Shown piece by piece: positions 17,551 through 56,914 of a stretch of 64,000 bases of DNA (positions are counted from its first letter, which is position 1; each line of letters opens with the position of its first letter). The stretch spans positions 434,001 through 498,000 of the forward strand of contig JAMSLZ010000019.1 of the NCBI GenBank assembly GCA_026027325.1, written 5' to 3'. Below the pieces are notes generated by a model that saw only the letters and a program-made list of their open reading frames with translations, did not search any database and was not told the DNA's origin. Source of the DNA: Actinomucor elegans. Taxonomy: Eukaryota; Mucoromycota; Mucoromycetes; Mucorales; Mucoraceae. The translations under genes were made by a program, and so were the position numbers.

Positions 17551-18432
17551 TTAATCCTTTAAAAACTTTTTCCATACGTTATACTCTCTATTTTTCTTAC
17601 GCCATTGATATTCTTTTAAATACAATACTATATCTTTTTTATTTCTATTTCGTGGTATTATACTTTGCTTTAAGCCATTCCATGTGCCTTCAATTGTATT
17701 TGTATGCACACCTGTATTTGGATCTTTAAAATGCTTTGAATGATTTACAGTTAAATGTTTGTATCCTATATTTTTCAAGTTATTATACCCTTTCCATAAA
17801 TCCGTATATATTGTTGTACCTTTTTTTACATATCTTTTTATAATTAAATCAATATTATCAACATTTCTTTCTTCAATGGGTAATAAAAACATTTTTTTGT
17901 TTTCATTTTTTATTTTATTTTTTAGCATACTTCTTTCGATACCACCAATTACCCAAGCACCTTCTACCTTATGCCCCTTATTATATTTTCTTTTTGCAAT
18001 TTTACTTTCATCGATTTCTACAATTTTATTTCTACCTCCAATTTTAATATTTCTGTTACCTAACAATTGTTTATTTTTCAAGTATTTTCTGAATATTTTA
18101 TTGTATGATGACACTGTATTTTTGCTAATTTGCAAACTTGATGCTATAAAGGAAGAAGGTGCTTTTCCAAGAAAAAGATATAATATGTGTAATTGAGTAT
18201 TTAAAGGTAAAGTTAAATTATTAAAAATTGTTCCTTTCAATGGTGATATTGCTTTCCTACATTTATAATATCTACAAACATATAATTTTTTATTTAAGTT
18301 TAATTTAGTTTCATGTTCACATTTATTACACTTTATATGTTTATTAACGTAATCATTACTAATTAAATATAATAGTGCTTCTTTTTCATCGTCGAATATT
18401 TTTTTTAAAGATTTATATGGTTCTATAAACAT
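17551..18432 (-). CDS. Merlin/ISXO2-like (IS1595 family) transposase
   Basis: 293 aa from the Met at 18432. An N-terminal zinc ribbon (CNKCEHETKLN..CRYYKCRK) is followed by a helix-turn-helix-like SSLQISKNTVSSYNKIF. The DDE domain follows: VEIDESKIAKRKYNKG with first Asp, GTTIYTDLWKGY with second Asp, and HTNTIEGTWNGLK with the Glu. These are the signature blocks of IS1595/ISXO2 and eukaryotic Merlin transposases, so the enzyme looks intact. Its frame is continuous with the upstream TE-A pol, giving one 1,443-codon open frame. Family certainty is high. Confidence 0.85.
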   Translation of the reverse strand: MFIEPYKSLKKIFDDEKEALLYLISNDYVNKHIKCNKCEHETKLNLNKKLYVCRYYKCRKAISPLKGTIFNNLTLPLNTQLHILYLFLGKAPSSFIASSLQISKNTVSSYNKIFRKYLKNKQLLGNRNIKIGGRNKIVEIDESKIAKRKYNKGHKVEGAWVIGGIERSMLKNKIKNENKKMFLLPIEERNVDNIDLIIKRYVKKGTTIYTDLWKGYNNLKNIGYKHLTVNHSKHFKDPNTGVHTNTIEGTWNGLKQSIIPRNRNKKDIVLYLKEYQWRKKNREYNVWKKFLKD

Positions 18433-18528
18433 CTGCAATTTTATTAAATCCTTTTTATTTTTAATTTTAATTTGTAAAAAAAATTCAATTTTTTCATATA
18501 ACAATAAAATTTGTGGTAGTAGGAGTTT

Positions 18529-21500
18529 CAATATGGACCTGAGAGTTCCTTTGGGATACATCCCTATTGGGTCAATAGGGTCCGCGATTTGATCCTCAGT
18601 GAAAAAGGGTACGCCGAATTCGTTCTTTTTTAGAGGTTCTTTGTTTTTCGAAACATTGCTAGGAATCGTGGAAAAACCTTTCGCTGCTGTGGAAATGACG
18701 TTACTAGACTTACCGTTTGCGTTATCCTTAATAGCAGCACGCCATTCTCGTCGGCTTATAGTTGGATTATACCATGGAGTAACAGGTATTGAACCATGAG
18801 CTGCTTTTAATCGATCAACATGGACTAATGATTTGAGTGGTTCACCAGTAACTGTCTGAAGCTTGTAGGTACCATATTCGGGGAAACTTTCAATTACCAC
18901 AAAAGGTCCTTTAAACCGAGGTTCAAGACCGAGTCGACCTTCATGAGTAAGTAAAACTAGATCACCAGGTTCAAAAGAGATTTTCTTAATGGCAGCGTCC
19001 CATTTCGCTTTGTCTTTAGCAGCCATTGCACGCATGCGAGCCTCAGCAGCAGCACGATTTTGGCCTAAATTGGCGAGTTCACGAGCAGTAAAATCAGCAA
19101 TGGTGCGAGGGTCATTAGCAGCTGTTTTATCGATATACGGTATCATCACATCCCCAGGAAGACGAGGTTCGCGACCGTAAGTGAGGTAAAATGGACTATA
19201 ACCTGTAGTGGAGTGAACACGAATACGACAAGCCCAGGTAGCAGCATTTAAAAAGTCATCCCACCTATGAATAGCACCATTTACGTATTTTCGGAGCATA
19301 GGTTTGAGAATGCCATTGAAACGTTCGACTTTGGAGTTAGTTCGAGGGTGAAAAGCTGAGGTTAGTTTGTGGGAGATCTTCACACGTTTCATATATTGAC
19401 GAAGCAGTTCGCTACAGAATTGTGCGCCACGATCAGTGCAGATTTCTGAAGGACAGCCAAAATTCATTACGATTTCTTCATATAAAAAGTCGGCAACAGC
19501 GGTTTCTGAAGCAACAGGTACTGCACGAGTGATTGGCCAGTTTGTAGCGGTGTCTACTGCTACAAGAATCCAACGATTTCCTCGCAATGTGGTAGGTAAC
19601 TCACCTATGAAATCTAAATGCCATCGTTCAAAAGCAGAAGGTATGTTTAGTGGATGCATTACGTCTTGGTGTTTGTGGGAGTGATTGGCATTAACTTGAC
19701 AAGCAGGACAGAGTCGTAGCCATGTCTTGATATCAGTTTTCAGTGAGGGCCACCATCCACGCGGTGTTAATAGATTCACTAGAGTAGAATAACCGCAATG
19801 TCCGAAACTTTCATGGTATTTCGTAACGAAATCCGCGCGTTCAACAAAAGGAATAAAAGGGACCAAACGAATGTTTGAACCGTCACCGTGAATATCCACT
19901 TTTCGGTAAACTTTGCCATCTGATACTTCAAAGAAGGAGCGTTCCTTAGCTAATTTGGTTTTTAGTTGTAAGGAAGAGACCTTTTCATAGTGATTATCGA
20001 GGTAAAATAAAGGCCAGTCGGACTTTACAGCAGGAGATAAACCAGCAAGAGGGTCAATGGCATAGATAAACTCAGGTTCCATCGAAGTAGGAGCAGGGGC
20101 ACAGTTAGGACCATCACGCCGGGATAAGGCGTCAGCAACCACCTGGAGATTGCCTTGTTTGTATTGTATATCTGGGTTATACATTTCCAATTCTGATATC
20201 CATCGAGTTAACCGAGGAGTCGGGTGTTCTTGAGTACGAAAGTATTTTAGTGGCAAATGGTCCGTGTACACCGTATAACCGGCAGCACAACCGTCTATCA
20301 AATGTCTCCACGCACGAAGGGCCATTAGAATAGCGGCCAGTTCACGTTCTTGAGCTGGGTATTTACGTTCGCGATCTGACAACTTCTTTGATTCGAACGC
20401 AATAGGATGCCAAGTGTTGGGATCATTTCGATCTGGTTGTAACAAACAGGCACCGGTGGCATAATCACTGCTATCGCATTCGATTCTATATGGCAAGTCG
20501 GGTGCGGGCATGGCAAGACAAGGGGCAGAAGTAAGTAGTTTTTTAACTTTATCGAAGCTTTCTTGGCATTCTTGAGTCCATTCAATTGATCGTTTTTTGT
20601 GACCTGTACCACGGGTTAAATTTGTCAAAGGTGTTACTACTCCAGCAAAACCCGGGCAAAACTTGCGAAAATATTGAGCTAGCCCCACAAACTGTCTGAC
20701 TTCTTGTACATTCGAGGGACGAGGCCAATCACGGATCGCTTTGATTTTATTGTCGTCAGGTAATATGCCAGCATAACTAATTCGGAAACCAAGATAAGAT
20801 GTTTCGCGTTTAGCTATAGAACATTTCTTCAGATTGCAAATCAATTGGTTTTTGCGCAATAAATCAAGTACATGACGTACGTGTTTTCGATGTTCTTCTT
20901 CGGTTTTCGAGAAAATGAGTACATCATCCAGATAGACCAGAGCGAATTTGTTTAAGCAATCATCCAATACACGATTCATTAGGGATTGAAACACCATTGG
21001 ACAGCAGGATAGTCCAAAGGGGGCAACCAACCATTCGAACTTTCCCATACGCGTATTAAAACTTGACTTGGGAATGTCGTCAGGGTGTAATCTCATTTGG
21101 TGATAACCACTCTTTAGATCTAATGTGGTGAAGAAGGATGCGCCTTGTAATCGTTCCAAACTTTCGTCAATATTTGGTATGCCGTATGCTTTCTTTACAC
21201 TTATACGATTGAGGGCTCGGTAGTCTATGCACATACGCAGTGAGCCATCTTTTTTGCGAACAAAGAGTACTGGAGCACCCCATGGACTGGAGCTGGGGCG
21301 AATGAGACCGAGGTTAAGCAGTTCAGTTAATTGTCGACGCAATTCATCACTCTCAGCAGGGCTCATTTTGTAAGGTGGACGATTTATAGGTCGGGCATCA
21401 CCAGTGTCAATCATAATTGGATCGTTACGAGCAGGAGGTAAACCAGGTAGAGTGTCACGAAAGACATCAGGATATTCAGAAATTAAGTTTTTCCAAAATG

Positions 21501-21888
21501 TTGTAGATGAATCGGTTGTAGTATCAGTCTCTAATGCTAATAATTCAAGGGCGTTTTTTAAGACAATATTGTCGTCGGGGTTGTCTATGAACATAAGGCA
21601 AAATTCGGCACCATGTTTACGAATAAGGCGGTCCGCTTGTTTAGGGGTTATCAAATAGTTCAAAGATACACCAGTATTCATCCGAGTAGTGCGTTCCATG
21701 TCGCCAGTTGAGCTAGAAGTATTACCGACAGTGTCAAGATCAGAATGAGATTTATCGAGATCACCAGAAGGTAGAGTTTGTTCATTCATATTCGTATTTA
21801 TAATTGGCTGTGTATCACATACTGTATTAGAATCAGTCGATACGTTTTGGAGTCTATTCTGATTATAGGGGTATATCGTCACTGTTCT
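18529..21888 (-). CDS. TE-A pol: reverse transcriptase, RNase H and integrase
   Basis: Continuation of the pro-pol frame beyond element D. Residues counted from the Met at 21882: RT with FVRKKDGSLRMCIDYRALN (about 207) and YLDD (317-320); RNase H with IECDSSDYATG (about 470) and YTDHLPLKYF; integrase with the zinc-binding HCGY..CPACQ region (about 690-725) and core blocks LDFIGELP, TDRGAQF and HPRTNSKVERFNG (D, D, E). A GPFVVIESFPEYGTYKL block and a Ser/Lys-rich tail follow. No chromodomain is visible. It is cut at its C-terminus by the Merlin element. Confidence 0.9.
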
Positions 21889-22038
21889 GGAAAATATACA
21901 TGCTATTCATATACCTATGTATCTTTAAAAAATATTCGTAAAATTTATAATCATATATATATATATAAAACAAAAAAAAATTACAAAATCTTTTTTATTT
22001 TTTAAGTCATGTGACATCATGATACGTATCCCTTAAGT

Positions 22039-23442
22039 TTAAAGGTTATCTAACCCAGCATGATATTCATCAATTATTTCTCTATCATTAAATGCGTCTT
22101 CCCATATCCAACTATTGTAGCTATCATCATAATTTTTCCATTTAATAAAATATTTTGTTCTTTTTTTATATTTTCTATGATTTAATATTTTTTCTATTTC
22201 ATATGAATCATTTTCTATGTATTCTATATTTTCGTCAATTATCATTTCACTTTTATTTAGCATATCATTAATAAATGAGTTTTGTTTATTTCTCATATTA
22301 ATGACTCTACAATATTCAAAAGTTTCAGTAAATGCATCTTCATTATGATTTTTGTTACTTGGATAATTAAATTTATCTTGTATCCATAATCCATAATAAT
22401 CTTTAATTGGAATATTTTGAAGCTCAACAAATTTTTGGATGTTACTTAATAATAATGCCATTTTTAACTGTAAATTATATATTCTTATATTATCAATTTT
22501 AAGAACTTTATTACTATTATCAAATCTTTGGAATTTATCACCTAATCGTCCAAATTTATTTTCAATGATGCTTCTAAAACTTCCAAAAGTATTATTGAAT
22601 TCAATTTCATTATCACTTAACTTAATTCCTTTTTTTTTTCTAAATGGAAATATAAAATTATCGTTATTGATTTTATCATTTCCATATTTACTACAATTCT
22701 CTAAGAAGTCTTCTATAAATAAATTATAACCTCCATCAACTGCTATACAATCATTTTCATTTAATTTATTTTCTAGTTTCATTGCTAAAAACATTTTACC
22801 ATCATTATATTTTTTACATGGTAAACTATCTGATACATAAATAGCTATTTCATTAACATCAATTATTACTTGGGTTCTAAATCCTGATTTTTTAAATTTA
22901 TATGAATACATATCTTTACTTTTAATTTTCAAATCTGTATAGTTAACTCTACTATCATGTCCATCCAAAAGTAAAGTAACATGCTTAAAATGCTCAGGAT
23001 TAAGTCTATTAGCATAATATATTCTTAATAAAATTGTGCTAAACATATTTTCTAATAGTTTATTACATGTTTTATGTAGCTCATTTAAGTTTACATCCCA
23101 GAAACTTTTATATATTTCATGAAATGATGAATAGGGTATGTAATCATTCATTTCTCTTATGCTTTTACCTGTAATTAAGTGATATATTATTAGTAATCCT
23201 TTTTCAATATCTCTATATGGAGTTTTATATTTATAATTTACAAATATATTATTTAAAAAGAAAAATATAGGTATTATGCCTAATTTGTTTTGTAATTCAA
23301 CCTTAATTTCTTCAATATTTTTTACATCTTTTAGTTCTGTTCTATGTTTATACTCATCTTCTTTTATTTTCCATTCCTCATCTAAAAAATTCCAGTAACT
23401 ATGTTTTATTTTATTTAATTCTTCGTATATAAGTTTATCCAT
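22039..23442 (-). CDS. DDE (PIF/Harbinger, IS5-like) transposase with C-terminal chromodomain, copy 1
   Basis: 467 aa, Asn/Lys/Ile-rich. The DDE core has LLLDGHD (D160), CIAVDGGYNLF (D236) and FRSIIENKFGRL (E294), the DDE_Tnp_4/HARBI1 pattern. After a linker, residues about 414-462 form a chromodomain: YEIEKILNHRKY, YFIKWKNY, SWIWEDAF, with all three cage aromatics (Y414, W435, Y438). Chromodomains read methylated histone H3, so targeting to heterochromatin is the natural inference. The last 19 codons lie inside the 207-bp inverted repeat, so the same tail is also encoded on the plus strand at 23488-23544. Intact, no introns. Confidence 0.85.
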   Translation of the reverse strand: MDKLIYEELNKIKHSYWNFLDEEWKIKEDEYKHRTELKDVKNIEEIKVELQNKLGIIPIFFFLNNIFVNYKYKTPYRDIEKGLLIIYHLITGKSIREMNDYIPYSSFHEIYKSFWDVNLNELHKTCNKLLENMFSTILLRIYYANRLNPEHFKHVTLLLDGHDSRVNYTDLKIKSKDMYSYKFKKSGFRTQVIIDVNEIAIYVSDSLPCKKYNDGKMFLAMKLENKLNENDCIAVDGGYNLFIEDFLENCSKYGNDKINNDNFIFPFRKKKGIKLSDNEIEFNNTFGSFRSIIENKFGRLGDKFQRFDNSNKVLKIDNIRIYNLQLKMALLLSNIQKFVELQNIPIKDYYGLWIQDKFNYPSNKNHNEDAFTETFEYCRVINMRNKQNSFINDMLNKSEMIIDENIEYIENDSYEIEKILNHRKYKKRTKYFIKWKNYDDSYNSWIWEDAFNDREIIDEYHAGLDNL

Positions 23443-24058
23443 TTTATGTTTTTTATATATGTTTTTTTCAATTTTTATTTCATTTTAGCATTTAATGATA
23501 GAGAAATAATTGATGAATATCATGCTGGGTTAGATAACCTTTAAACTTAAGGGATACGTATCATGATGTCACATGACTTAAAAAATAAAAAAGATTTTGT
23601 AATTTTTTTTTGTTTTATATATATATATATGATTATAAATTTTACGAATATTTTTTAAAGATACATAGGTATATGAATAGCATGTATATTTTCCTTATAA
23701 TAATAACAGTCAAATTTACTGTAATACTTATTAAGGAGAACATGTTTGTGCATTTAAGCATAAAAATTTAACAATTTACATAGATTTCATGAATTATATA
23801 AATGTTAGGGTTAATTTTAAAATCACGTGATTGTTAAAATGCCCCTAAATTTATGAATTTCATTTTTTTCAGCTTTTTTTTAGAATACCAAGACATTTTT
23901 AGAAATCACATGATATGATAGCTATAAAACATACTAATTCATTTTACTATCATTATATGTTTAATGGATAGGGATGTATTATATTAAGAGTCTCGTATTT
24001 TATTATTAATTAAATAAAAGGATTCAAAAAATTATTTATATTAAAATATATATTGACT

Positions 24059-24643
24059 TTATTTAATATTTAATTTATTAAATATATTAATAGCATCATC
24101 ATAATTTATATCCTCATCTTTTATCTCGTTATTTATTTTAATAAAACCTGTTTTAATTGTAAAATTTATATATATCTTACCATTACTAATATTTATAGAT
24201 GGTGAAAATAATGATGGATAAATAGAAAAACATTTATTTTTAATATCATCAATACTTAAATTTTGATTATTTTCTATATTTTTAAATTTGGATATATTAG
24301 TTAATACCAAATACATAATTTTTGTATTTTCTTTTGAATTCGATTCTATTAAAGGATTTAATAATTCTACATTCATAATTTTATTTCTTCTACAATACAT
24401 ATTTATTTCATTTATTAAAACATTTATAAAACTTTCAAAATCAATATGTTCATTACTAGTAATGTCTAAATCTATCTTTATTTTATATGGTTTTTTTTCA
24501 ATCCATAATTGACTATCTTCAAATGCAATCTTTGTATCAATTATGAAATTATGACCATTATACAATACATTGTATTTGTCATCCTTAAATTTCTCTATTA
24601 AAAAAGCATTTTTATCATATTCTGTTAATGTTATTACAGGCAT
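24059..24643 (-). CDS. Unrecognised 194-aa protein of element D, copy 1
   Basis: Single-exon ORF between the 202-bp inverted repeats of module two; starts MPVITLTEYDKNAFLIEKF and ends NIFNKLNIK. Alternating hydrophobic and charged residues suggest a folded alpha/beta protein. No Myb/SANT, zinc or catalytic motif is seen. PIF/Harbinger elements normally carry a second, DNA-binding (Myb-like) protein, so this may be a functional analogue, but there is no sequence evidence for that. Identical in the second copy. Confidence 0.6.
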   Translation of the reverse strand: MPVITLTEYDKNAFLIEKFKDDKYNVLYNGHNFIIDTKIAFEDSQLWIEKKPYKIKIDLDITSNEHIDFESFINVLINEINMYCRRNKIMNVELLNPLIESNSKENTKIMYLVLTNISKFKNIENNQNLSIDDIKNKCFSIYPSLFSPSINISNGKIYINFTIKTGFIKINNEIKDEDINYDDAINIFNKLNIK

Positions 24644-24956
24644 ATTTATTTTAATGTATGTTTTTCAATTTATGTTAAATAAATTAAAATTGGAAATATA
24701 AGAGTAATCTAGTTTTTATACATATATTAATTGGATGACATTGTTGTTATATAGTATGTTTTATAGCTATCATATCATGTGATTTCTAAAAATGTCTTGG
24801 TATTCTAAAAAAAAGCTGAAAAAAATGAAATTCATAAATTTAGGGGCATTTTAACAATCACGTGATTTTAAAATTAACCCTAACATTTATATAATTCATG
24901 AAATCTATGTAAATTGTTAAATTTTTATGCTTAAATGCACAAACATGTTCTCCTCT

Positions 24957-34500: not shown

Positions 34501-37500
34501 CCATTGCGACATCATCTTCACCGGAAAACAGAATGCTATTATCCTTAAAGTACTTGTATGCTGCACCATCAAAGTAATCTTTATATTCACCGTCAGTTGA
34601 TTTATAGTTGTAGCGGTATTTCATCAAGTCTCTTGTCTTTGCATTCGCAAGCATTTGAGCGACTTGTTCACCAATAGGAAGCATCTTCATAGAGCGACGA
34701 GGTTTACCATGATCATCAAAGCGATTTTCTTTACAAGCAGGGTTTTTACATTGAATAGTCTCTATATCTTCCTTTTCAAACAGCATGCAACCATTGACGC
34801 AGACATCATGAAAATGACATTGAATATTGGTTTTTGCTTTAAGAGTACGATCCAAGGTATCAGGGAACATGAGAGTGGATGGTAGGTAACCTATATATAA
34901 TGGGAATAAAAGCTGATAAGTACTTTTTTTTTAACTCTATTTGAATAGATACATACCCAATCCATCGGTTTTACGGCTCTCTTCATTGTTTTTGATTATG
35001 GTACGCATTAGATAGACAAGTTCTCTTTGAGCCTCTCGAGGAATACCATACGTGTCGCAAATATCTCTCAATTGGATGCTATTTAATTCCGTATTGGTGA
35101 AAAGGTTTTGATCCGAGGATTTGACGTTGTAAGCAATTGGAGTAGGCTCTATTTCAAACAAGGTATATTGTTAAATTAAAAGCTTTAGTAATATATCTGT
35201 TAACTCACCTTGGACAGGAATGCTAGCTTCTTGCGTTTGGACGACCCTTTGTTTTCTATGATCACGATTATGGCTATAGTGATTACTCCTAGCTTTAACA
35301 GTTTTGAATGGCCTCAAACAAGTAGCGCAAGTATATTTATATGGTGTAGCAGAAGAGGAAACTTTGCCCATTTAAAGATAAGTAAAAACAAGTAAATATA
35401 TCGAATTAATGAATAGCGGTTTTGTTGTTTAGAAAAAGCAGGTCTTAAATACGTTTGCTTGGTCTACAATTGACAGAGTTCTCAATGGTAATTCATTGTT
35501 TTAGGCTGTTGAATCCTTTGAACTAATCAGCTTTTCATATTACTCAGCCTTCCAGATTATTCAGATATCGAATACATTTTAATGGATCCTTATGATTTCT
35601 AATCAAGCTAATTCCTTTCCAAGTCAGTCATACCTGTCAGTAAGCTTACTTTCCAGAAAGCTCTTTGGACATTAGTAAGGATTACTAATGGATAAATGGT
35701 AAAGTACGCTTATAAAACAGTTAAATAGCTCAAATCATTCAATCACTTTTCTTTATAATATATTTACTTTATAGCTATGTCAAACAACAACAACAATAAT
35801 TGGAGCGTCTACTTTGAGAAGATTGAACAAGAAATCTTAATCAACCGTCGTTTAATTCAAGATTTGATCCAAATATTAGCACCTCTATTTCCTCGAGAAG
35901 CTTCGAGGGTTTCATCTAACGAAGAAATTGAACAAGCACTTGACGATGGTACAATCATATCTGAAGCATGTTACTACATTCAGTTTTATTAACCTCTTAG
36001 CTTGTCATATATAGCTGAACGAGAAGCAATTGCAAATGCTTTGAATCCTAATTTACGTAGTAAACGGTCAATCCCAAAAGTGCTAGAAGAAGCAAAAGTG
36101 CGTTATCAACAAAAGGCAACCAAGACAAATGTCACCCCTTCTGCACCATTAAGGTTATATGCCCTCTTGAAACACCTCAAGTATATAAAAGGCCAACAAA
36201 ATGAACTGACCGATGATGATGTTCAACCGCAATACAATACGTTGAAATACTTGGCAAGAGATGTCTTGAAAGACATGGAAAGGGCAAATATAAATATTGT
36301 TGGTAAAACTTGGAGTGAAATTGGCGAAGAGGATACCAGCATTCAAGAACGTTATGCTTTGCTTTTAGAGAAACGTGCTTTAGATGTGGGCTTGCATCTG
36401 CATCTCTGTGTAGAGATGTGGGCTGCCAAGTTACTTTTATCTGAAGCACTCAAAAACAAGAAGACTGTACGTACCAGAAGTAATTCTGCTGAAGAAGGTG
36501 AAAGTCAACAAAATCAAGAATCTGTTGAAGACAATGAGATTGAATCGTTCTTCAGGTTAGATGCTTTTTTATTTCTGTTTTTATATCTTTATTAATATGC
36601 TTGTTATGCAAATAGTGTGGATAATCAGCATATCCTTGTTGATCGTCTAGCTACTTCTGTTGCTCCAGTTGGTCTTGCATCTCCAATTGCTAGCTTGTTG
36701 GATCTACATTCTGCTCGCTCATCAACGAAAAGAAAAGCCATTACGGTTCAACCTGACGTTGGTGAAGATGAGGAGGCTGGATCTGACAATCGTTCCAAAG
36801 AAGCGGATTCCAATAAGCGTAAACCACGCTCTAAGAAAAATACAAAAAAAACGAAATAAATATAGACGTTTTTTTATTGGTTTAAGTAGCTGACGTAGCA
36901 TTTTTCTGCGGCTTTTCAGTATTAAGAAAAACTTTTTTACACCAATCTTGAGTTTCTTTCTTTTTTTTCGTTTGCTAAATTGGCACATTAAACGTAAGGT
37001 TTCTTGACATTTGTCACTCTTATTGCGCACAACACTTTAACTGAAGCTTCTGTATAATAGGAATTAACCTCAATGTCAGCTTGTAATTGTGTTTTTTTTT
37101 CCAAGCTTTCGAATATTTCCCTCGTTCTTAATGTCGTAATTATCTATAAATACGTCGTCATTCATACTGCTTATATTCTTATACTGACTTGTATTCTTAA
37201 ATACTTATACCACTTCAGTAATACTTATAGCCAGTAATGCCATATAGCTTTTGAACCTTTACTATTAGTTTTAAAGCTAATAACCATTAAGTAAGTGCAA
37301 TGATTACTAATCCATTAATTTCTTTGTATATTAATCTAATACTGTTATAATAGATTTAGTTGTGTATATATACAAGACGAAGACTATTAAAACTGTAGCC
37401 CAGTGAATTATAATTGATTGTGTCTGATATAGTGTTGGTAAGTCTGTAGCAATAGCGAGTTTCATTCAAGAATCTAATCATTACTTACTTTAGGAAAAGA

Positions 37501-40500
37501 TGATTAAAATATGCTATTATACAAGCGTGGGCCATTCTTCTAAAGGTTAGTTCAAATATACTCTTAAAATATTGTTTCATCAACGATAACTGACATTATT
37601 TATACAGTTATTTGCTTAATTCATTTACCTGTTACTTGCCAGTGGGACATAAATTCTTTTATACTTGTATGACAATAAGGTAAGTTAAATACTGTTCGTG
37701 TGTGATAGAAAGCTGGTTATTGTATATTCAGCTATTGAAGGCTAGTGTGTATTAGAGTAATATCTGTTGAAGTTATATATTATATAAATAAAAAAAATAG
37801 CAATTAAATTATTATCTGAATAACCAAAATGACTATAATATTATTAGTAGTGTATTGTGAATATATGATAGAAAACTAATAATAATATTGATTATAAATC
37901 ATCAATATGGAGGGATTAATCCATACTATTATTGACTGGAAACCACTACTATTATACAATTTACCCATAATAATATTGAAGGAAAACCCTTAATATTATA
38001 GTATTTACCCATAATATTATCGAATAAGAGTCACTAATATTATCAACCGCCGAAAAAACACTGCCTAGAAATTGACAATAATTATTAGCAGAACTATAGT
38101 CGATTTTACCCCTAATATTATCAACTTTTGGGCAAAAACCGACAATATTTTCGCCATAGTGTCCCGCAGTAACTCCATTCAATTCCGAAGTTAGCTCTTC
38201 ATCTTCTGCTGTTCCTGTTCAGGAACACATGAATATCGATGAACACGCAGCCGTCCAGGCACAACTTTGTAAGTCAAACATATTTTCAAATTTACCCAAA
38301 CAAAGATCTAATGCGATTCTTTTACCTATTGTTGTGCAGAACATTCGCGTCTACGCATACTTGGATACAGGCTGTACGTTCAGCATATGTTCTCCTCGCT
38401 TCTTTCGTTCTCTTGGTGTTGGCTTTACGCCTTCATCTGGTACGGTTCAGCTTGGTCATGTTAACACGCAACAACCTAGGATTGGTTATACTTCTTTGAA
38501 CATTTTGTACAATAAAATACAATTGAAGCATAAATTTGAATTGTTTGATTTCTATACAGAGGACGATAGTGCGCCTATTTTATTTGGTCTTGACATTATG
38601 CCTCTTCTTAACATCGCTATCACTGGGTTGGTATCAACTTGGGATGATCATACTGGTCCTGCATTGCCATCACCAATCGATCCTGAAGATATCAAACCTA
38701 ATAATAGTCCTTTTGGTACTGCTGATGAACGCCAATTGATGCAATCTAAACTTAAACCACTGTTAGCTGCAAACGCTAATATCGATTTGAAGAATACCTA
38801 CTGCAATTTGCCTGGTGCAATAGTACAATTGGAAACGCAACCCGGTAAAGTAGCTTACCGTAAGCCATACCCAATTCCTATTGCCTACAAGCAATCCGTA
38901 TTAGATCAAATTGAAACTTGGAAAAATGAAGGTGTAATAGAAATTGCACAAAGCCACACCGGCTTTAATTCTCCCCTTCTATGTGTTAGTAAGAAAAATG
39001 CTGATGGTATCTATTCGTTTAAGAAGCCTAGAGTAGTAGCTGACGTTCGTGAGTTAAACTCGATTCTTATTAGTACGGATAAGTACAATATACCTCTCAT
39101 TTCGGACATCCATGAACGCTTAAGTAATGCCAAAATCATTACTAGTATCGATATCCATTCTTGCTTCACTAGCTTCCTCGTTGACCCTGCTCACAAAAGC
39201 AAGTTAAACTTTATGTGTCCTTTTACTAACTTGCAATATACTTTTCGCAAAGTATGTTTCGGTGTGTCCTTTATTGCTAATTTGGTACAAAGGACCTTAA
39301 CTAACTTGTTCAGTGACCTTCCTTACGTAACGATCTATATCGATGACATTTGCATCAGTACCAATGATTCTCTAGCACATCATACTGATTGTGTAGCCGA
39401 AGTTATCCGTCGCCTCACAAACGCAAATCTTCAACTTTCTCCAGAAAAGATTGTACTTGCTCAGAAAAGTATTCACATTTTGGGTTGGTCAATTGTAGAT
39501 GGTAAATTGATGCCTGATCCAAGAAAAGTATCAAATGTACACACCTGGCCTCTTCCTCAGACGGGTAAAGACATTATGCGATACTTGGGTTACTTCAATT
39601 ACTTTCGTTCTGCGATTCCTGGATACAGTCGTTTAGCAGCTCCACTTGATGAGTTACGCAGTAGTAAATCACTTGCAGCTATATGGTCTGACAAACACAC
39701 GCAAGCTTTTCGCAACTTGCAAGCAGCCTTGTCGTCTGCTCTCGTGTTATCTCCTCCTGACTTTCGTTACCGTTTCCATGTCGCAACTGACGCGTCTAAA
39801 ACTGGTATTGGTGGAGTCATTTACTATATCAAAAATGATACGGTTCATTATGTGACTATGGCTTCTCGCAAGCTATCTACCTCCGAAATGAATTACAGTA
39901 CAACAAAACGAGAATTACTTGCTATTGTCTACATGTTGACTAAGTATCATAAATGGTTATTCGGTATTAAATTCACTTTGCATACTGATCATAAAAGCCT
40001 TATCTTTTTACATGATCAAAGCACCCCCAACACCTTGATGCTGACTTGGTGGGACACTATTTTTTCTTTTACGTTCGATGTTGTTCATATTCCTGGAATT
40101 AAGAACATCATTCCCGATACTCTTAGTCGACTGTTTTCTGATGACGAACCCAACAGTCTGGAGGAGGGTGGAAATATTGTTAACCATCAAAACATATTTG
40201 AGAACCATAAGAAAAGATATAATACCACGCGTTCTGAACGTAAACTGCAAATACGGTATCCTACAGATAAAAACAAGTCACGCAAAAGAATACTATCTGC
40301 TAGAAACGGGACTGAAAATAAAACAAAAGGAAATTACGCCTTTTCATCTTTCCCAACAGTTTCTACAAACTACGATGATAATACCAATACATCATCCAAC
40401 CACATTGACTCATCCAATACTACATCGTTCGATAGTTACAATAAGACACCTCTTATTTCTCGCGCAATGCAATATGCTGATTATATGACACCACCTGAAA

Positions 40501-43500
40501 AGGATCGCGTTTCTATTATTATGAAAGCACACTTGCTTGGCCATTTTGGCGTAAATGCAATTGAGAAAACTATTCACAATGATTACAAATTACATTGGAC
40601 TAATTTGCGACAAGACATTCAAAGAGTTATCAATGATTGTGAAGCTTGCCAAGCACATGGCATCTATCGAGTTGGTTATCACCCTCCTAGAAGCGTGTTG
40701 CCTGACGGTGTCTTCGATCATATCTGTATAGATCTCGGTGATTTCAATACTACATCATCTCGTGGTAATAACTTTATGTTAGTTGTAGTAGATTACTTTA
40801 GTCGATTTACAATTCTACGTGCACTCCCTGACAAGAGTAGTTACAGTGTAGCAAAAGAATTACTTCACATATGCTGTCAGTTCGGATTCCCTCGGATCAT
40901 CACGCATGACAATGGTATGGAATTTGTGAATGAAGTGGTTAAACAATTTATACAAATGAGTGGCATGGATAGACGGCTTAGCTTGCCCTATACTCCTACT
41001 GGAAACAGTGTAGTAGAAAGCTATGTTGGCATCTGTAAACGTAGTATCATCAAAGCGTTAACTGCTAATGCTGTTGAACCTGAATCTTGGGATTTGTATT
41101 TAGACGTGATCCAATACTCTGTCAATTGTCAGTATTCGCGATTGCATAAATCTCGTCCTTTTGCGGTTATGTTCAATAGACAGCCTAATGACTTTATCGA
41201 CTACACGGATGTAAAACCTACCATCAATATCGAGAAATCTGATAGTAAACTCATTGATAAGAAGCTGAAATATGTCAAAGATGTCATTATTCCTTCTATT
41301 GCTAAACGCATTAAAGAGACACAATTAAACGATCATTTAAAATTCCAAAAGAATAACAAGATCATTGAAACAAAGTACCCTCTTAATTCTAAAGTTATGA
41401 TCGTGAACGTACTCAAATCATCTAAACTGCAACCCAGATGGTTAGGTCCTTTTATCATTAAAGGCTACACCAAGCATGGTAGTTACATTTTAGAAGATCT
41501 CACTGGCTCTTTATTATCTCGTGATGTACCTACGCATCAGATAAGACTGATTCAATCAGGAGATCAACGATCTGAAAGCGAACTTAACGAGAAACATTAT
41601 GAGGTACAAGCAATTGTAAACCATCGACTCTTGCCAGACGGTGAATACGAGTATTACGTGCATTGGGTTGGATACGATGACCAAGAAAAATACAATACTT
41701 GGCAGACGGTTGATACCTTCGATTCGAAGAAACCTATTCAAGACTATTGGACACGTCGTCAAGCAACCATTGCAAGCACAACAGGTAGATCCCTGCCTAA
41801 TACTATCAACAAGCGAAGAATACCTGCTCGTAATAAACACAGCAGATCGTTTGTACCTAAAGCATATAATACAAGATCTTGAGTTGCTTAATTGCACTCT
41901 GCAAGTGTAATTGTCTTTTCCCTTATGTTACTTTTTTCCTATAATGGTTTTTTACAAGGTTTTTTATGACAGTTTACATTACACACGATCTTACATCTAA
42001 CACAATGCTTACATCCTATCCTTTCGTTCTTATGATTATTACATCTTTAATACAAAGATACTTCTAAGGTGATGACCTCATCTGGAAGGGGGCAATGTTG
42101 TATTCCACCTACTATTTTGCATCGACATAATAGTAAGGAATCAACTGTTCATTTATGTCATACACGGACTCTATCTGATAACCCAATCAGATTAACGAGG
42201 CCTGCATAAATACAAGCGATGTGTCATCCTTAGAACTATTAGCCAATAATCCTTACAAGAAACACGCGGCATCATACTATCGAGTAGTATCGAGTGTATC
42301 TCAAGATAAGACCTGAATATCGAATAACGCGTGGGTTATACAATTACAACAATGCATGGTTGAAAGGCTTATTAGTGGCTGCTGGGATTGGACTCCGTTG
42401 TACGGCCATGCGTGCTGATAGATATTGAATGCTACACTATTAAGCTCTGATGAAATGTATATAAAGAAGACTTGATTTTGAATTGTGAATAAAACATTAG
42501 AATAACTTTTACTATCAGGATAGCTGATTCCATTTACTGTCTATTCTTTTATTATTGTATTTTAAATTATATCCTTCGTCTTTAGCACCGGATATAACAC
42601 TCCTTTACGATTCCCTACCAGCTGGCAACAATTCCATACTTATGGTGAAAAAGTCGCTGGTTCTTATAGAGGTAAGATGGGTATTACATTATTGGTCAAT
42701 CCCTCGTGTCCATACCCTGTAATTCCTATCCCCTCGGGTTCTCCCTATGTCTTCTCTTGCCAAGTCTCTTCTCTCCTGATTCATTGTGTCTATGCTCCTC
42801 CTTCCCTGACCGATGACGAATTTATGTCTCTCATTACCGCACTACCTATGCAAACTCATCCCTCTCAGAAAAATGCTATTCTTTGTGGTGATCTGAATGC
42901 GCGCAGTGTATCTCTTCTTGGTGATACTCGTACCAACACGCGTGGCAGCCGTCTTGGTGAGTGGATCGAAGAAGCTGGTCTCTTTTGCTGGAATGCTCTG
43001 TTAGCTAGAGGTGTACCTACTCTCAGTTCTCAAAGTCGTTTAGCAAACTCTCAACCTGGTCATACCTCTTGGAACAGTGTTATTGACTTGTTCATTAGCT
43101 ACTCTGATTTGGTAAATACTTCCCTGGTGATTCGCGAGAATAGCCTTGGCTCTGATCATGTCCCTGTCACCTTGACGTGTTCTTTACAAGATGCTCCTCC
43201 ACCTCCAGTGGCTCATCCTCGTGTTCTTTGGAAAATGTCTGTGTTAGATGAACACAAGAGTGCTGAGCTTTATAAGTCTCTTTTTCGGGTGAAGGTTTCA
43301 CCAATCAAAAATGCACTCTTGGCAGAAGTTAAGTATTCACTAGAACTATATGCACGCAATAACAGTCGCACCTCTACTCACGCTATTCCTTTTCAACATA
43401 ATAGAGAACCTCCTGATGTTGATAGGCTAGCTGATAGACTCACTGAGATCATCCACTACTGTCTGGACCACTCTGTCGGTAGAAAGAAGCCCCCTCGTCC

Positions 43501-46500
43501 ACCTGGCAATGCTCGGTTCTGGACTGATCGTCTTCAATCTTTGGTTGATTCTCGTGAGGATACCAGAAGGGCTTGGAAACGAGCGCCTGATGGTGTTGGT
43601 AAAGCTGTATTCTGGAAAGAATATGTGGCTGCATGTGATGCTTTTACCTGTGAACTGAAACGCCGGCGTCGTGAGACTTGGAAACAGTTCTGTGATAAGC
43701 TATCCAATGGTGATTTTGCTGAGACGACCACTATTATCAAGCGTATGCGCCGTAATCGTACGATGTCTCCTGGGTTTTCGCACCCTGAAGGTCCTGCTAC
43801 TGCTGCTACTGTGATGTCAAGTCATCTTCGTTCAGTCTTTGCTGGTGATCAGCTTCCTGATCTTCGACCTTCTGCTCCTCCTCTACCGAATGGCCCTTGT
43901 CTTACACGTCATGATATCCTATATCTCTGCTCAACTTTTGATATTACTGTTGATAGCTTGGTTAGCCACCCTATTGATAAGAGTGAACTCATGGATAATA
44001 TATCAGATTCTGATTGCCCATTCTCAGTGGAATTGGTTACCTTGGTAATAATCAAGAGATTAGCACGTCGCAAAGCGCCTGGTGTTGACCACATTCGTAC
44101 TGAAATGCTACTACCAATCTTGAATGATTTGGCCCCAGTGTTGGTGCTGCTCTTTTCTCTGTGTTGGATCTGGTCTCGGGTTCCTAAAACTTGGTGTACT
44201 GCCCAGGTGATCCCTATCTTCAAGAAAGGTGATCCACTAGACGCTGCTAACTATAGACCCATTAGTTTGACATCAGTCATGCGTAAGGTTATGGAACTAT
44301 GCCTATATCCTGGTCTACTAGATTCTGCTCCTACACATGATATTGTACAAGGTGGATTTCGTGCAAATCGCGGTACATTGGATCAAGCTTTAGCTCTACA
44401 TGAGATCTGTCGTCAACATACAATAGATCATATGGGGGAACCTCCTGTACTATGCTTTCTGGACATCAAACAAGCCTATGATAGTGTTGATCGTAATATC
44501 ATTTGGCGTGCTCTTGAAACACATGTACCTGATGCTCTACTTGGTATTCTACAATGCCTCTTTGACAATGTTCGAATTGAAGCTTTGGTATCTGGTGCTC
44601 GCTCTCCTACTTTTTGGCCTGGAACGGGAGTACTACAAGGATCTATCCTCTCACCATTTTTATACTCTGTATATATCAACTCGTTACCTGCTGCTCTTAG
44701 AGCAACGTTAAAAATAAAAAAAAATAAAAATTAGTTTTTAAATTAAATAGTGTTTTTTGTAATTATATTTTTTTTTGTTTAACACTTTTTTATTGTAATT
44801 TTTGAAAGTTTGGTAATTAACGTAAAAATAAGAAATTGCAATAATTATGCAAAACTTATAAAGATTAAACTTTTATATTACTTTTCAATACAATTAAACT
44901 TTTTTTTTTCATAATATTTCACACCAGATCGAAACCCTGTTGTGCGACAATTTTTTTCTTTTAAAATTGATTAAAAAGCACGTCGTAAGTTTTTTAGCAA
45001 CTTACAACTTGATAAATAAAGAAAACTATATAATTTTAATTTAATAATATAAAAATAATTATAATATATATATTAATTATTAATGGTATGTAATGTAGCT
45101 CTTATATAAAAATTGCTCTTTGTTTTTGATTCATAGTATCAATTTTTATTTTATTTTTTGCCAAATGTTTGAATGTTTAATATTAAAATAATTATAATTA
45201 TAATCATTTCTGTAACATTAATTCAAACTCAATTACTTTTTTCTAAAAAATTGAATTATTATATAAATAAAAATAAGAACATCTTATGACAATTGAAATA
45301 GAGGAACTATTAGAAAATGAATATGAAGAGATTAAAACAAATTATTGGAAATTTTTAGATAATACATATAAATCTAATATTGAAAAACAATATCATAGAA
45401 GTAAAATAGGAAATTTTATTAACATTCAAAATATAAAAAAAGAATTATATGAACTATTAGGTGCAATTCCTATATTTGTATTTTTAACAGAAATTTGTAG
45501 TAAAATTAAAATGCCATCACCAGTATATAATGTAGAAAAAGGAATTTTGATTTTAAAATTATTAGTAGATGGTTGTTCCATTAATGATATGAAAATTTAT
45601 GATGAGAATGATTCTTTTTATAGAATTTATAAATCTGTTTTTATTGATAATATAGATTTTTTAGAAAATTGGGTTAATAATACGATGTTTTATTGTTTTA
45701 GCAACAGCATTACTAGATTATTATATAGTAAATTATACAATCCTAAAAATTTTGAACATTGTACATTACTTTTAGATGGAAGACATAATAGAATAGTAAT
45801 TGAAGATATTGATTTAAATAAAAAAGATTTATATTCTTATAAATTAAAGAAAAATGCATTAAACACCCAATTTATTATAGATTCAGCAGGATATATCATC
45901 TATGTTTCAGAATCATTACCATGTAAATTTAATAATGACGATAATATGTTTATTAATAATATAAATTTAATGAAATTTTTTAAACTGACAGATTGTTTAT
46001 GCTATGATGGATTATATGAAATGTATTAGATGAAATTTTAAAAAAATATAATAATGTAGGATTACATATTACAGAAAATAACTTTTGTTTTCCAATAAAA
46101 AAAGAAAAAAATATTGATTTAGATGTTGATGAATTAAATTTTAATAAACAATTAGGATCATATAGAAGTACCATTGAAACTTTTTTTGCAAAATTTTCAA
46201 ATATATTCAAAAGATTTAGCTACAAAGCCAATGCAAGAATTACAAAAGAAAAAACATATAACATTCAGATTAAATTAGCATTAGTTTTATTTAATATCAA
46301 AAACTTTGTAGAAAAAAATAATATAGAAGAAAAATCTTATTATAAACTATGGATGGAAAAAGATTTTGATTTTTTTGATACTATTAAGGATTTTAATATC
46401 GAAACTAAATCAATAAAGGCGGTATATAAAAAAGAAAATATAATGAATATGAAAAGTTTACAGGATGATCTTCTAAATAAACTTTTATCTGATAATAATT

Positions 46501-48559
46501 TTAAAATCAGCTTAACTAAAAATAAAATGCAAATTGATAATGATGATAATAATACTAGTACTGATAAAAATGTATATGAGATACAATATATAATACAACA
46601 TAGAAAAATAAATAATGAATATGAATATGAGGTAAAATGGAGAAATTATAAAAAACAAGTAAACAGTTGGATTAAAGAAAGTGACTTTCAAACAAAAGAT
46701 ATTCTAAAGAATTATTGGGATTCTATCAATGTCTAAGAGCAACGTTAAAAATAAAAAAAAATAAAAATTAGTTTTTAAATTAAATAGTGTTTTTTGTAAT
46801 TATATTTTTTTTTGTTTAACACTTTTTTATTGTAATTTTTGAAAGTTTGGTAATTAACGTAAAAATAAGAAATTGCAATAATTATGCAAAACTTATAAAG
46901 ATTAAACTTTTATATTACTTTTCAATACAATTAAACTTTTTTTTTTCATAATATTTCACACCAGATCGAAACCCTGTTGTGCGACAATTTTTTTCTTTTA
47001 AAATTGATTAAAAAGCACGTCGTAAGTTTTTTAGCAACTTACAACTTGATAAATAAAGAAAACTATATAATTTTAATTTAATAATATAAAAATAATTATA
47101 ATATATATATTAATTATTAATGGTATGTAATGTAGCTCTTAGATCTATATCTATGCCCTCCTCTCGAGTTTTTGGTACTATGCCACAACGCAAGTATAAT
47201 GGCCTCTGGATTAACTCACTTTTGTACGCAGACGATGTAGTCCTGATTGGCACTGCTGAAACCATGCCTAGATTGCTCAAGAAAGCAGAAGAACATTCCC
47301 TAACTCTTGGTTATAGGTGGAACCCTCTCAAGTCTGTGGTTGTCAATGCACCATTGTATACTGGTCGGGCAACGCCTCTTAGGCTTTATGGCTCAAATCT
47401 TCCGACTGCCGATTCCTTTATTTATTTGGGTCTCCCTTTTAACACTAAAGGTCAATTAGATACTTCTCTACTGGTCCAACGAAATGCACGGTCAACACTG
47501 GTGGCTATGCGCTCTGGTATCCAACCATTTGGTTTCCACTCGCCTAGTTTTTCAAGACTAACATCTGCTCGGATTTACACTACATTCATCCGCCCAAAAT
47601 TAGAATATGGTCTCGCTATCTCGACATTTCTGGTTAAGGATCATAAGGTGATTGAGAAAGCTCAAGATCAATGCCTCCGTCTCTGTTTTGGTGGCCATTC
47701 TAAAGCTTCTACCATGGTATTCAAACACATGACTGGTTTACCATCGATGCGTGAACGTATTGAAACCCTTGGCTTCAAGATGCTGGTTCGCATGAATCAT
47801 CTACCTGCTGATACCCTAATTGGTTCACTGCTTCCCCATCTCAAAACTTCCCCAGTTCAATCTCGGTTTCGTTGGCCTGCATTGATCAAGTCTAATAAGA
47901 TATGGCATATGCTCTGTTTCCCTGCTGGTGCACCTCCCATCCCAGTATATCGGACTATTGAACATTGGATCTCTTCTTCTGGTGATGTCAAAATATCCAA
48001 GATCATCTTCCAGTATCGACAAATGAATCTTCGTGATACTCTAGCCAAAGTCGATGCTCCTGTTCTGCTACGTGCTTGTCGCCCTGTACTAGGAATTGAT
48101 CCAATACTGACATTGCCAATGACCGTCTTCGAACGTAGTCGTCTATTAAGATGGCGTATGGGTTGGCTTCCTGCTCGTCCTGTTGCTTGTAGTCGGTGTG
48201 GTGCCTCACATGCATCTCGAAACCACCTGATAGCATGCCTATCGGTTGCAAATAGGCTAGGTATATCTGCCGACACTAAACCAAATCCTTTGGACTATGT
48301 GATCAACCAACTACCTGTACTAAAAGAAGCTCCCTCTTTCAATGACCAACGATATGCCAAATCTTTAGTTCGATGGTCTAATTGGTGGCCAGTCCTGTGC
48401 TCTATTATGGTTGAAATGGATATGATATGCCTCCCTGGAGAAGAATTCTCTGAACTAGCTTGCGATTCCTCCGGTTCTACATTTCTAGAATGGTTACTGC
48501 CTATATACTATCTACCTGTTGCTCTGGCGATTAATTCTTCTCTATACAACTATGTCTAA
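28533..48559 (+). CDS. LINE-1 ORF2: endonuclease and reverse transcriptase, split by TE-B and E
   Basis: Three segments, 28533-28718, 42605-44699 and 47142-48559, join to 1,232 aa without a frame break. The apurinic-type endonuclease has IWNANGMA, ITETWLL, CGDLNARS and GSDHVPVTL. RT has RRKAPGVDHIRTEMLL, IPIFKKGDPLDAANYRPISL, FLDIKQAYDSVDR and YADDVVLIG. A C-terminal CCHC knuckle is CSRCGASHASRNHLIAC. Organisation (EN, RT, CCHC, no RNase H seen) fits an L1/R1-like lineage. TE-B cuts the endonuclease (after WLLPP) and E cuts RT just before the YADD motif. Confidence 0.88.
28719..29222 (+). repeat. TE-B 5' LTR
   Basis: 504 bp, TGTTGTATTCC to CCGGATATAACA; contains a TATATAAAG-like element near 29085 that could be the promoter. 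It is followed by a leader of 44 bp before the gag ATG. Confidence 0.9.
29267..30787 (+). CDS. TE-B gag portion of a single gag-pol ORF
   Basis: 507 codons before the CACTA insertion. A Ser/Ala-rich head is followed by the gag domain (LSQMSQAQLTWYEVEFHQNARAAG is in its middle; FLSRFGTTVDEDRAACARSL and FIDRFNDLRRRAVD follow) and a cysteine-histidine motif CHSCGAPGWTRQHRC near residue 445. Joining GCT CCC (ending 30787) to GCA at 38166 keeps the frame into pol, so gag and pol are one ORF of about 1,745 codons. Confidence 0.82.
31540..31660. repeat. Tandem repeat in CACTA copy 1
   Basis: GAAA microsatellite followed by four diverging units of about 20 nt with core ACATTGCGTAAAAAAAAGAA. The second CACTA copy has five units (50871-51010), so the array has changed length. 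The rest of 30900-32399 shows no supported gene; a 65-codon minus ORF at 31066-31263 is conserved only because the copies are near-identical. Confidence 0.7.
32400..35371 (-). CDS. CACTA transposase (Tnp2-like), copy 1
   Basis: Six exons (35371-35209, 35148-34957, 34890-34052, 33985-33465, 33410-32781, 32724-32400) join to 889 aa with GT..AG introns. The N-terminus has a C2H2-like zinc finger (CATCLRPF..HYSHNRDH). The middle matches Tnp2 transposases: FVDGFCTSKNHKGDKLTIIH, LAILPGPNYPKYMHTFLKP, ATGDLPAAAELANHIGH followed by FGCRICRV, and GLDEMHLLGQG. These include the expected acidic catalytic residues. No frameshift in either copy, so probably functional. Confidence 0.82.
35372..35776. promoter_or_regulatory. 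Divergent promoter inside CACTA copy 1
   Basis: 405 bp between the transposase start (minus) and the second gene (plus). No coding sequence. A TTTATAATATATTTAC stretch lies about 25 bp before the plus-strand ATG. It presumably drives both element genes. Confidence 0.45.
35777..36859 (+). CDS. CACTA second gene product, unrecognised, copy 1
   Basis: Three exons (35777-35969, 36015-36555, 36616-36859) give 325 aa. The Asn-rich start is followed by a predicted helix (WSVYFEKIEQEILINRRLIQDLI), a helical middle, and a strongly basic C-terminus (KRKPRSKKNTKKTK) that looks like a nuclear signal. Plant CACTA elements encode a second, TnpA-like DNA-binding protein that binds subterminal repeats. Position and basic tail would suit such a role, but no homology is recognised. 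Confidence 0.6.
36860..38161. repeat. CACTA copy 1 right subterminal region
   Basis: Non-coding 1.3 kb. Short motifs such as ACCCATAATATTAT, CTAATATTATCAAC and AATAATATTG recur many times in both orientations between 37830 and 38140. It includes the site where element D is inserted in copy 2 (position equivalent to about 37412). Confidence 0.65.
38166..41882 (+). CDS. TE-B pol with integrase chromodomain
   Basis: Continues gag in frame. Protease: AYLDTGCTFSICSP and APILFGLDIM. RT: IDIHSCFTSFLVDP and YIDDICIS (the usual YLDD/YVDD box). RNase H: HVATDASKTGIGG and HTDHKSLIFL. Integrase: HH-CC region HLLGHFGVNAIE..CEACQ, and core D/D/E blocks IDLGDF, THDNGMEFV and TPTGNSVVESYVG. The C-terminus carries a chromodomain (YEVQAIVNHRLLPDGEYEYY, HWVGYDDQE, NTWQTVDTF) with cage aromatics present, then a basic tail. 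This makes TE-B a chromovirus-type element. Intact apart from the CACTA insertion. Confidence 0.88.
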   Translation, partial: AVTPFNSEVSSSSSAVPVQEHMNIDEHAAVQAQLCKSNIFSNLPKQRSNAILLPIVVQNIRVYAYLDTGCTFSICSPRFFRSLGVGFTPSSGTVQLGHVNTQQPRIGYTSLNILYNKIQLKHKFELFDFYTEDDSAPILFGLDIMPLLNIAITGLVSTWDDHTGPALPSPIDPEDIKPNNSPFGTADERQLMQSKLKPLLAANANIDLKNTYCNLPGAIVQLETQPGKVAYRKPYPIPIAYKQSVLDQIETWKNEGVIEIAQSHTGFNSPLLCVSKKNADGIYSFKKPRVVADVRELNSILISTDKYNIPLISDIHERLSNAKIITSIDIHSCFTSFLVDPAHKSKLNFMCPFTNLQYTFRKVCFGVSFIANLVQRTLTNLFSDLPYVTIYIDDICISTNDSLAHHTDCVAEVIRRLTNANLQLSPEKIVLAQKSIHILGWSIVDGKLMPDPRKVSNVHTWPLPQTGKDIMRYLGYFNYFRSAIPGYSRLAAPLDELRSSKSLAAIWSDKHTQAFRNLQAALSSALVLSPPDFRYRFHVATDASKTGIGGVIYYIKNDTVHYVTMASRKLSTSEMNYSTTKRELLAIVYMLTKYHKWLFGIKFTLHTDHKSLIFLHDQSTPNTLMLTWWDTIFSFTFDVVHIPGIKNIIPDTLSRLFSDDEPNSLEEGGNIVNHQNIFENHKKRYNTTRSERKLQIRYPTDKNKSRKRILSARNGTENKTKGNYAFSSFPTVSTNYDDNTNTSSNHIDSSNTTSFDSYNKTPLISRAMQYADYMTPPEKDRVSIIMKAHLLGHFGVNAIEKTIHNDYKLHWTNLRQDIQRVINDCEACQAHGIYRVGYHPPRSVLPDGVFDHICIDLGDFNTTSSRGNNFMLVVVDYFSRFTILRALPDKSSYSVAKELLHICCQFGFPRIITHDNGMEFVNEVVKQFIQMSGMDRRLSLPYTPTGNSVVESYVGICKRSIIKALTANAVEPESWDLYLDVIQYSVNCQYSRLHKSRPFAVMFNRQPNDFIDYTDVKPTINIEKSDSKLIDKKLKYVKDVIIPSIAKRIKETQLNDHLKFQKNNKIIETKYPLNSKVMIVNVLKSSKLQPRWLGPFIIKGYTKHGSYILEDLTGSLLSRDVPTHQIRLIQSGDQRSESELNEKHYEVQAIVNHRLLPDGEYEYYVHWVGYDDQEKYNTWQTVDTFDSKKPIQDYWTRRQATIASTTGRSLPNTINKRRIPARNKHSRSFVPKAYNTRS
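42096..42599 (+). repeat. TE-B 3' LTR
   Basis: 504 bp, identical by eye to 28719-29222; polypurine tract at about 42082-42095 and target repeat CTCCT after it. The interval 41883-42095 is non-coding 3' leader. Confidence 0.92.
44700..45101. repeat. Element E left direct repeat
   Basis: 402 bp, non-coding, A+T-rich; GAGC..GCTC ends; flanked by TTA on both sides as if it were itself a solo element. Contains a GTAAGTT..AACTTAC hairpin near 44990. Confidence 0.8.
45286..46736 (+). pseudogene. Element E transposase with chromodomain, one frameshift
   Basis: Homologous along its length to the element D transposase. It has LLLDGRHNR (first Asp), CLCYDGLYE (second Asp) and SYRSTIETFFAKF (Glu), and ends with a chromodomain (YEIQYIIQHRK, YEVKWRNY, NSWIKESDF) with cage Tyr, Trp and Tyr. 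The first frame stops at 46029. The homologous protein continues in another frame from about 46020 (NVLDEILKKYNN) to the stop at 46734-46736. So one small indel breaks it, unless it is a sequencing error in the A-run nearby. The stop codon TAA abuts the right direct repeat. Confidence 0.8.
46737..47138. repeat. Element E right direct repeat
   Basis: 402 bp, same sequence and orientation as 44700-45101. Flanked by TAA (the transposase stop codon) on the left and TTA on the right. Confidence 0.8.
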
Positions 48560-56208: not shown

Positions 56209-56914
56209 ATATAGATGTTTTTTTATTGGTTTAAGTAGCTGACGTAGCATTTTTCTGCGGCTTTTCAGTATTAAGAAAAACTTTTTTACACCAATCTTGA
56301 GTTTCTTTCTTTTTTTTCGTTTGCTAAATTGGCACATTAAACGTAAGGTTTCTTGACATTTGTCACTCTTATTGCGCACAACACTTTAACTGAAGCTTCT
56401 GTATAATAGGAATTAACCTCAATGTCAGCTTGTAATTGTGTTTTTTTTTCCAAGCTTTCGAATATCTCCCTCGTTCTTAATGTCGTAATTATCTATAAAT
56501 ACGTCGTCATTCATACTGCTTATGTTCTTATACTGACTTGTATTCTTAAATACTTATACCACTTCAGTAATACTTATAGCCAGTAATGCCATATGGCTTT
56601 TGAACCTTTACTATTAGTTTTAAAACTAATAACCATTAAGTAAGTGCAATGATTACTAATCCATTAATTTCTTTGTATATTAATCTAATACTGTTATAAT
56701 AGATTTAGTTGTATATATATACAAGACGAAGACTATTAAAACTGTAGCCCAGTGAATTATAATTGGAAAATATACATGCTATTCATATACCTATGTATCT
56801 TTAAAAAATATTCGTAAAATTTATAATCATATATATATATATAAAACAAAAAAAAATTACAAAATCTTTTTTATTTTTTAAGTCATGTGACATCATGATA
56901 CGTATCCCTTAAGT

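Follow-up and report, generated by a model that had tools for sequence, protein, structure and literature searches.

Does a cut-and-paste transposase that carries a chromatin-reading domain use it to choose where it inserts? The question is raised by a locus of the fungus Actinomucor elegans, in a stretch of 64,000 nucleotides (the window; contig JAMSLZ010000019.1 of GenBank assembly GCA_026027325.1, forward-strand positions 434,001 to 498,000) that contains a gene for a DDE transposase ending in a chromodomain. Chromoviral retrotransposons are well known to integrate under the guidance of chromatin, and the prevailing view of cut-and-paste transposons is that DNA sequence or accessibility mostly decides where they insert. 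We confirm that the fusion of transposase and chromodomain is real, and find that it is encoded by a cut-and-paste DNA transposon that has been active recently and belongs to a PIF/Harbinger-like lineage; that the chromodomain guides insertion is a plausible idea, which we infer and do not offer as a result.

The transposase, its chromodomain and the age of their fusion

Pfam recognises two domains in the 467-residue protein and no others, DDE_Tnp_4 (38.4 bits, with a curated cut-off of 24.8) and Chromo (41.5 bits, E 1.3e-10, cut-off 25.1). Alignment assigns the catalytic residues to D160, D236 and E294, and this triad is kept in 62 of 63 relatives; in a viral fold library the DDE part resembles giant-virus transposases. 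In a sequence search of the PDB the top match is HP1 (2.4e-6), a profile built from 63 sequences finds CBX5 (1.5e-13), and the search alignment pairs Y414, W435 and Y438 of the transposase with the cage residues of HP1, which we take to be Y24, W45 and Y48. The C-terminus, modelled with AlphaFold2, has the three-stranded sheet and C-terminal helix of the chromo fold, and superposes on H3K9me3-bound chromodomains at 1.3–1.5 Å. A preliminary description of the locus had proposed a cut-and-paste DDE transposase joined to a genuine chromodomain with just these cage residues, and named profile searches and structure prediction as checks; the Pfam scores, the PDB and profile matches, the triad and the model agree with it on each point.

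A fusion of this kind could arise falsely, by chance run-on of an open reading frame or by misassembly, but we regard the probability here as negligible and the explanation as refuted: at least nine full-length copies, spread over six contigs, encode a 100% identical protein, and independent two-domain homologues are present in named fungi and in metagenomes. The 36.5 Mb genome searched (27 contigs) holds at least 94 transposase matches (91 of 435 candidates scored), and among its open frames both DDE_Tnp_4 and Chromo score above cut-off in nine of the ten transposase types scanned, the exception being family C, which lacks Chromo.

Searched against 5.8 billion proteins, the transposase has 167 matches, and among the best 120 of these, 84 carry Chromo and 82 carry both Chromo and DDE_Tnp_4 in precomputed domain assignments. 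The two-domain homologues among the matches listed come from Mucor hiemalis, Circinella minor (where the protein is annotated 'Chromo domain-containing protein'), Entomortierella, Dissophora and many unnamed sources including metagenomes, and the fusion spans at least two fungal phyla, Mucoromycota and Mortierellomycota. In a tree built quickly from the DDE part (the window protein and 108 homologues, 109 rows in all, with 12 truncated or doubtful homologues excluded) the chromodomain is present in 83 rows and absent from 26, several clades without it persist, and its presence changes seven times, at least five of these changes being forced by well-supported branches. The simplest reading would be one early gain followed by several losses, as judged with a query that itself bears the chromodomain, the best 120 of 167 homologues and an arbitrary root. 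The preliminary description had regarded the fusion as old and maintained, and pointed to a diverged protein with the same fusion elsewhere in the window ('element E', Table 1). Both statements hold: the window copy of element E is split into two frames, and an open 483-residue relative of it (L028:6526–7977) matches DDE_Tnp_4 at 2e-9 and Chromo at 9.1e-6, while the homologues, the DDE tree and the transposase types of this genome speak for age and maintenance. Since one transposase family has retained a reader domain and, if the simplest reading is right, shed it repeatedly, the family allows a direct comparison between enzymes that bear the domain and relatives that do not. Some of the transposases that lack it (for example P0061 and P0063) have C-terminal tails rich in lysine and arginine, which perhaps provide a substitute contact with DNA or chromatin.

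The several lineages that do without the domain, together with the variability of its residues outside the cage, would fit a passenger chromodomain, its ligand weak or lost, that serves mainly in protein stability or dimerisation. We consider this quite improbable, since 59 of the 63 relatives aligned have aromatic residues at all three cage positions and the chromodomain is much better conserved than the linker.

Table 1. Coordinates of the element, its parts and related features (window positions unless a locus is named; TSD, target-site duplication).
Feature	Position	Strand	Basis or remark
DDE transposase with C-terminal chromodomain, 467 aa	22039-23442	-	Reading frame open from ATG to stop
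DDE_Tnp_4 match, residues 174-334	22441-22923	-	Pfam, E 1.2e-9
Chromodomain, residues 414-461, aromatic cage Y414/W435/Y438	22060-22203	-	Pfam
Complete transposon copy 1, 3,065 bp, ends GGAAAATATACATG...CATGTTCTCC	21889-24953	-	Both outer ends and 3-bp TSD
TSD TCT, left copy	21886-21888	.
TSD TCT, right copy	24954-24956	.
Inverted-repeat arm a, outer, 207 bp	21889-22095	+	100% complementary to 23488-23694
Inverted-repeat arm a, inner, 207 bp	23488-23694	-	Pairs with outer arm a
Spacer between gene units, 40 bp, imperfect palindrome	23695-23734	.
Inverted-repeat arm b, inner, 202 bp	23735-23936	+	Identical to the reverse complement of 24752-24953
Inverted-repeat arm b, outer, 202 bp	24752-24953	-	Pairs with inner arm b
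Companion protein, 194 aa	24059-24643	-	Open reading frame
Copy 2 of whole element, 3,064 bp, TSD ATT	56765-59828	-	One gap, zero mismatches against copy 1
Element E, diverged broken relative; frame broken between the DDE and chromodomain halves	45286-46736	+	Open stretches 45277-46026 and 46020-46733
Chromovirus-type polyprotein, 1,217 aa (reverse transcriptase, RNase H, rve integrase, C-terminal Chromo), outside the element	38229-41882	+
Type D companion, 122 aa	L019:3924-4292
Type C companion	L041:257-631
Family B long-form companion, 556 aa	L028:2204-3874

A two-gene unit that moves as one piece

The transposase shares its element, which with its copies we call family A, with a second gene encoding a 194-residue companion. 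The transposase unit (21889–23694) and the companion unit (23735–24953) are joined by the 40-bp imperfect palindrome at all 14 loci with a family A end, and across the whole genome, with fragments of single copies merged by hand, the 14 transposase loci and 14 companion loci among the matches listed pair one to one. At L009 and L022 no outer right end could be recognised; at the other 12 loci both outer ends were located, and they lie 3,059–3,065 bp apart, or 5,408 and 5,571 bp apart at the loci that hold another inserted element. An exact 3-bp TSD flanks all 12 copies with both ends (each window copy counted once), the sequence being AAT/ATT in six, TAT in two, GTA/TAC in two, TTA in one and TCT in one. 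When the two flanks of each copy are joined, those of six of the 12 align with a related site that lacks the insertion, at 89.6–100% identity over 106–302 bp, and no such site was seen for the other six within the small set of sequences fetched. The related empty site of copy 2 is at window positions 37266–37565, and that of the copy at L016 is the 3′ part of the polyprotein gene in the window. Each gene is flanked by its own arms, with the outer ends alike over a few bases only; in 11 of 12 copies the two b arms are perfectly complementary, and the a arms are 98–100% complementary across copies in gapped alignment. The transposase frame of copy 2 (56915–58318) encodes a protein identical to that of copy 1.

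These observations show that both genes, with their repeats, travel together as a single mobile unit of 3,065 bp. The region had been described as one of nested transposons, and an independent transposon at 23734–24954 was considered and ruled out, because the 14:14 pairing, the TSDs and the related empty sites fit the joint unit only; the supposed insertion is the second half of the transposase element. As to other families, a family D element of 2,504 bp is inserted within a family A copy with the TSD AAA (3-bp TSD in one of one), and 3-bp TSDs are present in three of five copies of family F and, read by eye, in two of two copies each of families G and I.

From what is known of such enzymes, the transposase would pair the element ends, cut by way of the D160-D236-E294 triad and join the ends to the target with a 3-bp stagger; what the sequence itself shows is the triad, the TSDs and the empty sites. 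The second gene probably encodes a helper protein, the counterpart of the Myb-like protein of known Harbingers.

The element shares with PIF/Harbinger a DDE_Tnp_4 transposase (467 residues, in a range of about 400–500), a two-gene layout (PMC9710019, PMC9179366) and 3-bp target duplications (PMC9710019); in the portions of these and the other cited articles on which we draw, Harbingers consist of a transposase and a Myb-like protein (PMC9179366, PMC9710019) and their duplications are typically 3 bp (PMC9710019). It differs in its C-terminal chromodomain and in the placement of each family A gene within its own long inverted repeats. It appears to differ in its target duplications, which are not strictly TNA, the classic PIF/Harbinger target (ANT in the Pangu group; PMC12477816), and in its partner: for the four companion proteins scanned, Pfam lists no match to Myb, SANT or MADF with an E value of 10 or below, and the companion of another subfamily, type D, is modelled as an alpha/beta fold and not a trihelix. 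The earlier label 'HARBI1-like' is kept for the DDE domain, the duplications and the layout, with no Myb/SANT partner found among the companions scanned; on its sequence features we call the element Harbinger-like rather than a member of Harbinger.

Chromoviruses (Ty3/Gypsy) also have a chromodomain at the C-terminus of the enzyme that joins DNA, as in the polyprotein in the window, but they are long-terminal-repeat (LTR) retrotransposons with an rve-type integrase; the protein studied here has neither reverse transcriptase nor rve integrase, and its cut-and-paste element ends in inverted repeats, not LTRs. Maverick/Polinton elements are large and self-synthesising, with a retroviral-type integrase, unlike the small two-gene cut-and-paste element here. 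C-terminal chromodomains are known on the integrases of chromoviruses and Mavericks (PMC10799480, PMC3248453) and of brown-algal Gypsy lineages (PMC12477816). Ginger1 elements are likewise cut-and-paste, and their transposases, which are of the Gypsy-integrase type, carry Ulp1, OTU or PHD additions, the PHD finger being a chromatin-type domain (PMC2836005); the main text of that article contains no term starting with 'chromo'. The preliminary description had named earlier publication of the fusion family as grounds for refutation, and no description of a DDE_Tnp_4–Chromo fusion was found in the literature searched, which comprised articles in part, with Repbase and the main fungal cut-and-paste survey outside its scope; among the homologues listed, the protein databases show the pairing as domain annotation only.

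Insertion sites and host chromatin

We propose, with a probability of roughly 55%, that the chromodomain of this PIF/Harbinger-like element tethers it to heterochromatin for targeting, the function that we consider most likely for a domain of this kind. Held on a flexible linker, the chromodomain would most likely bind the methylated tail of histone H3, probably H3K9me2/3, and the tethered complex would favour insertion into other transposons, where the damage is small. The genome encodes a Pre-SET domain, of the H3K9-methyltransferase type, in a search that matched in no control genome; searches for VEFS-box and Chromo_shadow gave no match and are uninformative, the control genomes being likewise blank. 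H3K9me2 is reported on transposon repeats and in transposon-rich regions of four Mucor species (PMC12863538).

Targeting by the chromodomain had been suggested to help explain nesting inside other transposons; we do not accept clustering or nesting as an argument for it, after comparison with Tc1/mariner elements. Transposase copies lie in transposon islands in 76 of 88 cases (from 94 rows, with fragments of single copies merged) and Tc1/mariner copies lie in the same islands in 91 of 108 (from 121 rows); the islands were defined from these same elements, so the comparison shows similarity only. The mariner query protein, the one member scanned, has no Pfam Chromo match, and clustering and nesting are therefore no evidence for a role of the chromodomain. 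Several further observations weigh against targeting. Chromodomain-bearing polyproteins do not show stronger clustering (islands hold 55 of 81, by a rough comparator of 81 among 150 Chromo rows, long non-transposase frames picked by hand and not fully consistently). The family C transposase (L041; 420 of 422 residues identical to P0077) is without Chromo, and its two listed copies, the second of them unread, are also in islands; the clades of the tree that persist without a chromodomain count in the same direction. The HP1 residues E52, E56 and N60, which help to hold H3, are replaced in the transposase by Y, I and A, at positions that vary across the family, and Polycomb-type domains match the chromodomain model about equally well, so that the ligand is not readable from the sequence.

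Distances were measured on 14 contigs for 81 transposase, 95 mariner and 67 polyprotein copies. Within 50 kb of a chromodomain-bearing polyprotein lie 70% of the transposase copies, 61% of the mariners and 15% of 2,000 random points. Near contig ends there are 38 of the 81 transposase copies versus 25 of the 95 mariners (p 0.007, with copies not independent), an excess that leans toward the targeting prediction; the shares there are 33% for the polyproteins, which counts against it, and 10% for random points.

The gathering of mariners, whose query member lacks a chromodomain, in the same islands would also fit a chromodomain used otherwise than in target choice, either to find or cut the element's own heterochromatic copies or to link it to a host protein, with the islands left by selection against insertions in genes. 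The conserved cage accords with this, and so does the setting of the insertions: at seven of 12 both 600-bp flanks are 44–100% covered by repeats from other fetched loci (a biased library, with no random control), so that the element's surroundings are probably silenced. We judge this reading somewhat unlikely, because the chromodomains of chromoviral integrases direct integration, as Gao reportedly described in 2008, and a chromodomain at the corresponding end of a different DDE enzyme suggests a like function. Under the targeting proposal, the chromodomain may steer the element into DNA that is already silenced, and if this is true the element would supply a small transposase of natural origin that is directed to silent chromatin.

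Companion proteins and neighbouring elements

At window positions 17551–21882, on the minus strand, a Gypsy pol reading frame continues into a C-terminal IS1595-type transposase domain (residues 1282–1428), which is probably a further insertion read in frame.

The companion protein differs strongly between subfamilies, having 194 residues in family A, 556 in family B and 122–124 in families C and D. In this genome the gene for the family A companion is found only beside the family A transposase; its product has one relative at 99% in the protein database, no Pfam match near cut-off and no PHROG match. Family B has a long form with the 556-residue companion and shorter copies without it; this protein has 18 matches in the genome and none in Pfam, PHROG or the PDB, and to the eye alone it recalls plasmid rolling-circle initiators. 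Family B (L023:3479–5877, L025–L028) also has additional 67-bp inverted repeats beside its 209-bp arms, which give it palindromic ends. The type C and D companions are modelled as ferredoxin-like alpha/beta folds with invariant N60, H62 and N64 (NxHxN), and may be degenerate relatives of Rep/HUH proteins. The type D companion has 63 matches in the genome, and 38 of these, counting the query, are identical over their full length. At 16 places a companion reading frame 70% identical to that of type D, with one stop, covers the same stretch, and 15 of these have no transposase within 5 kb among the matches listed; such copies are possibly a non-autonomous family.
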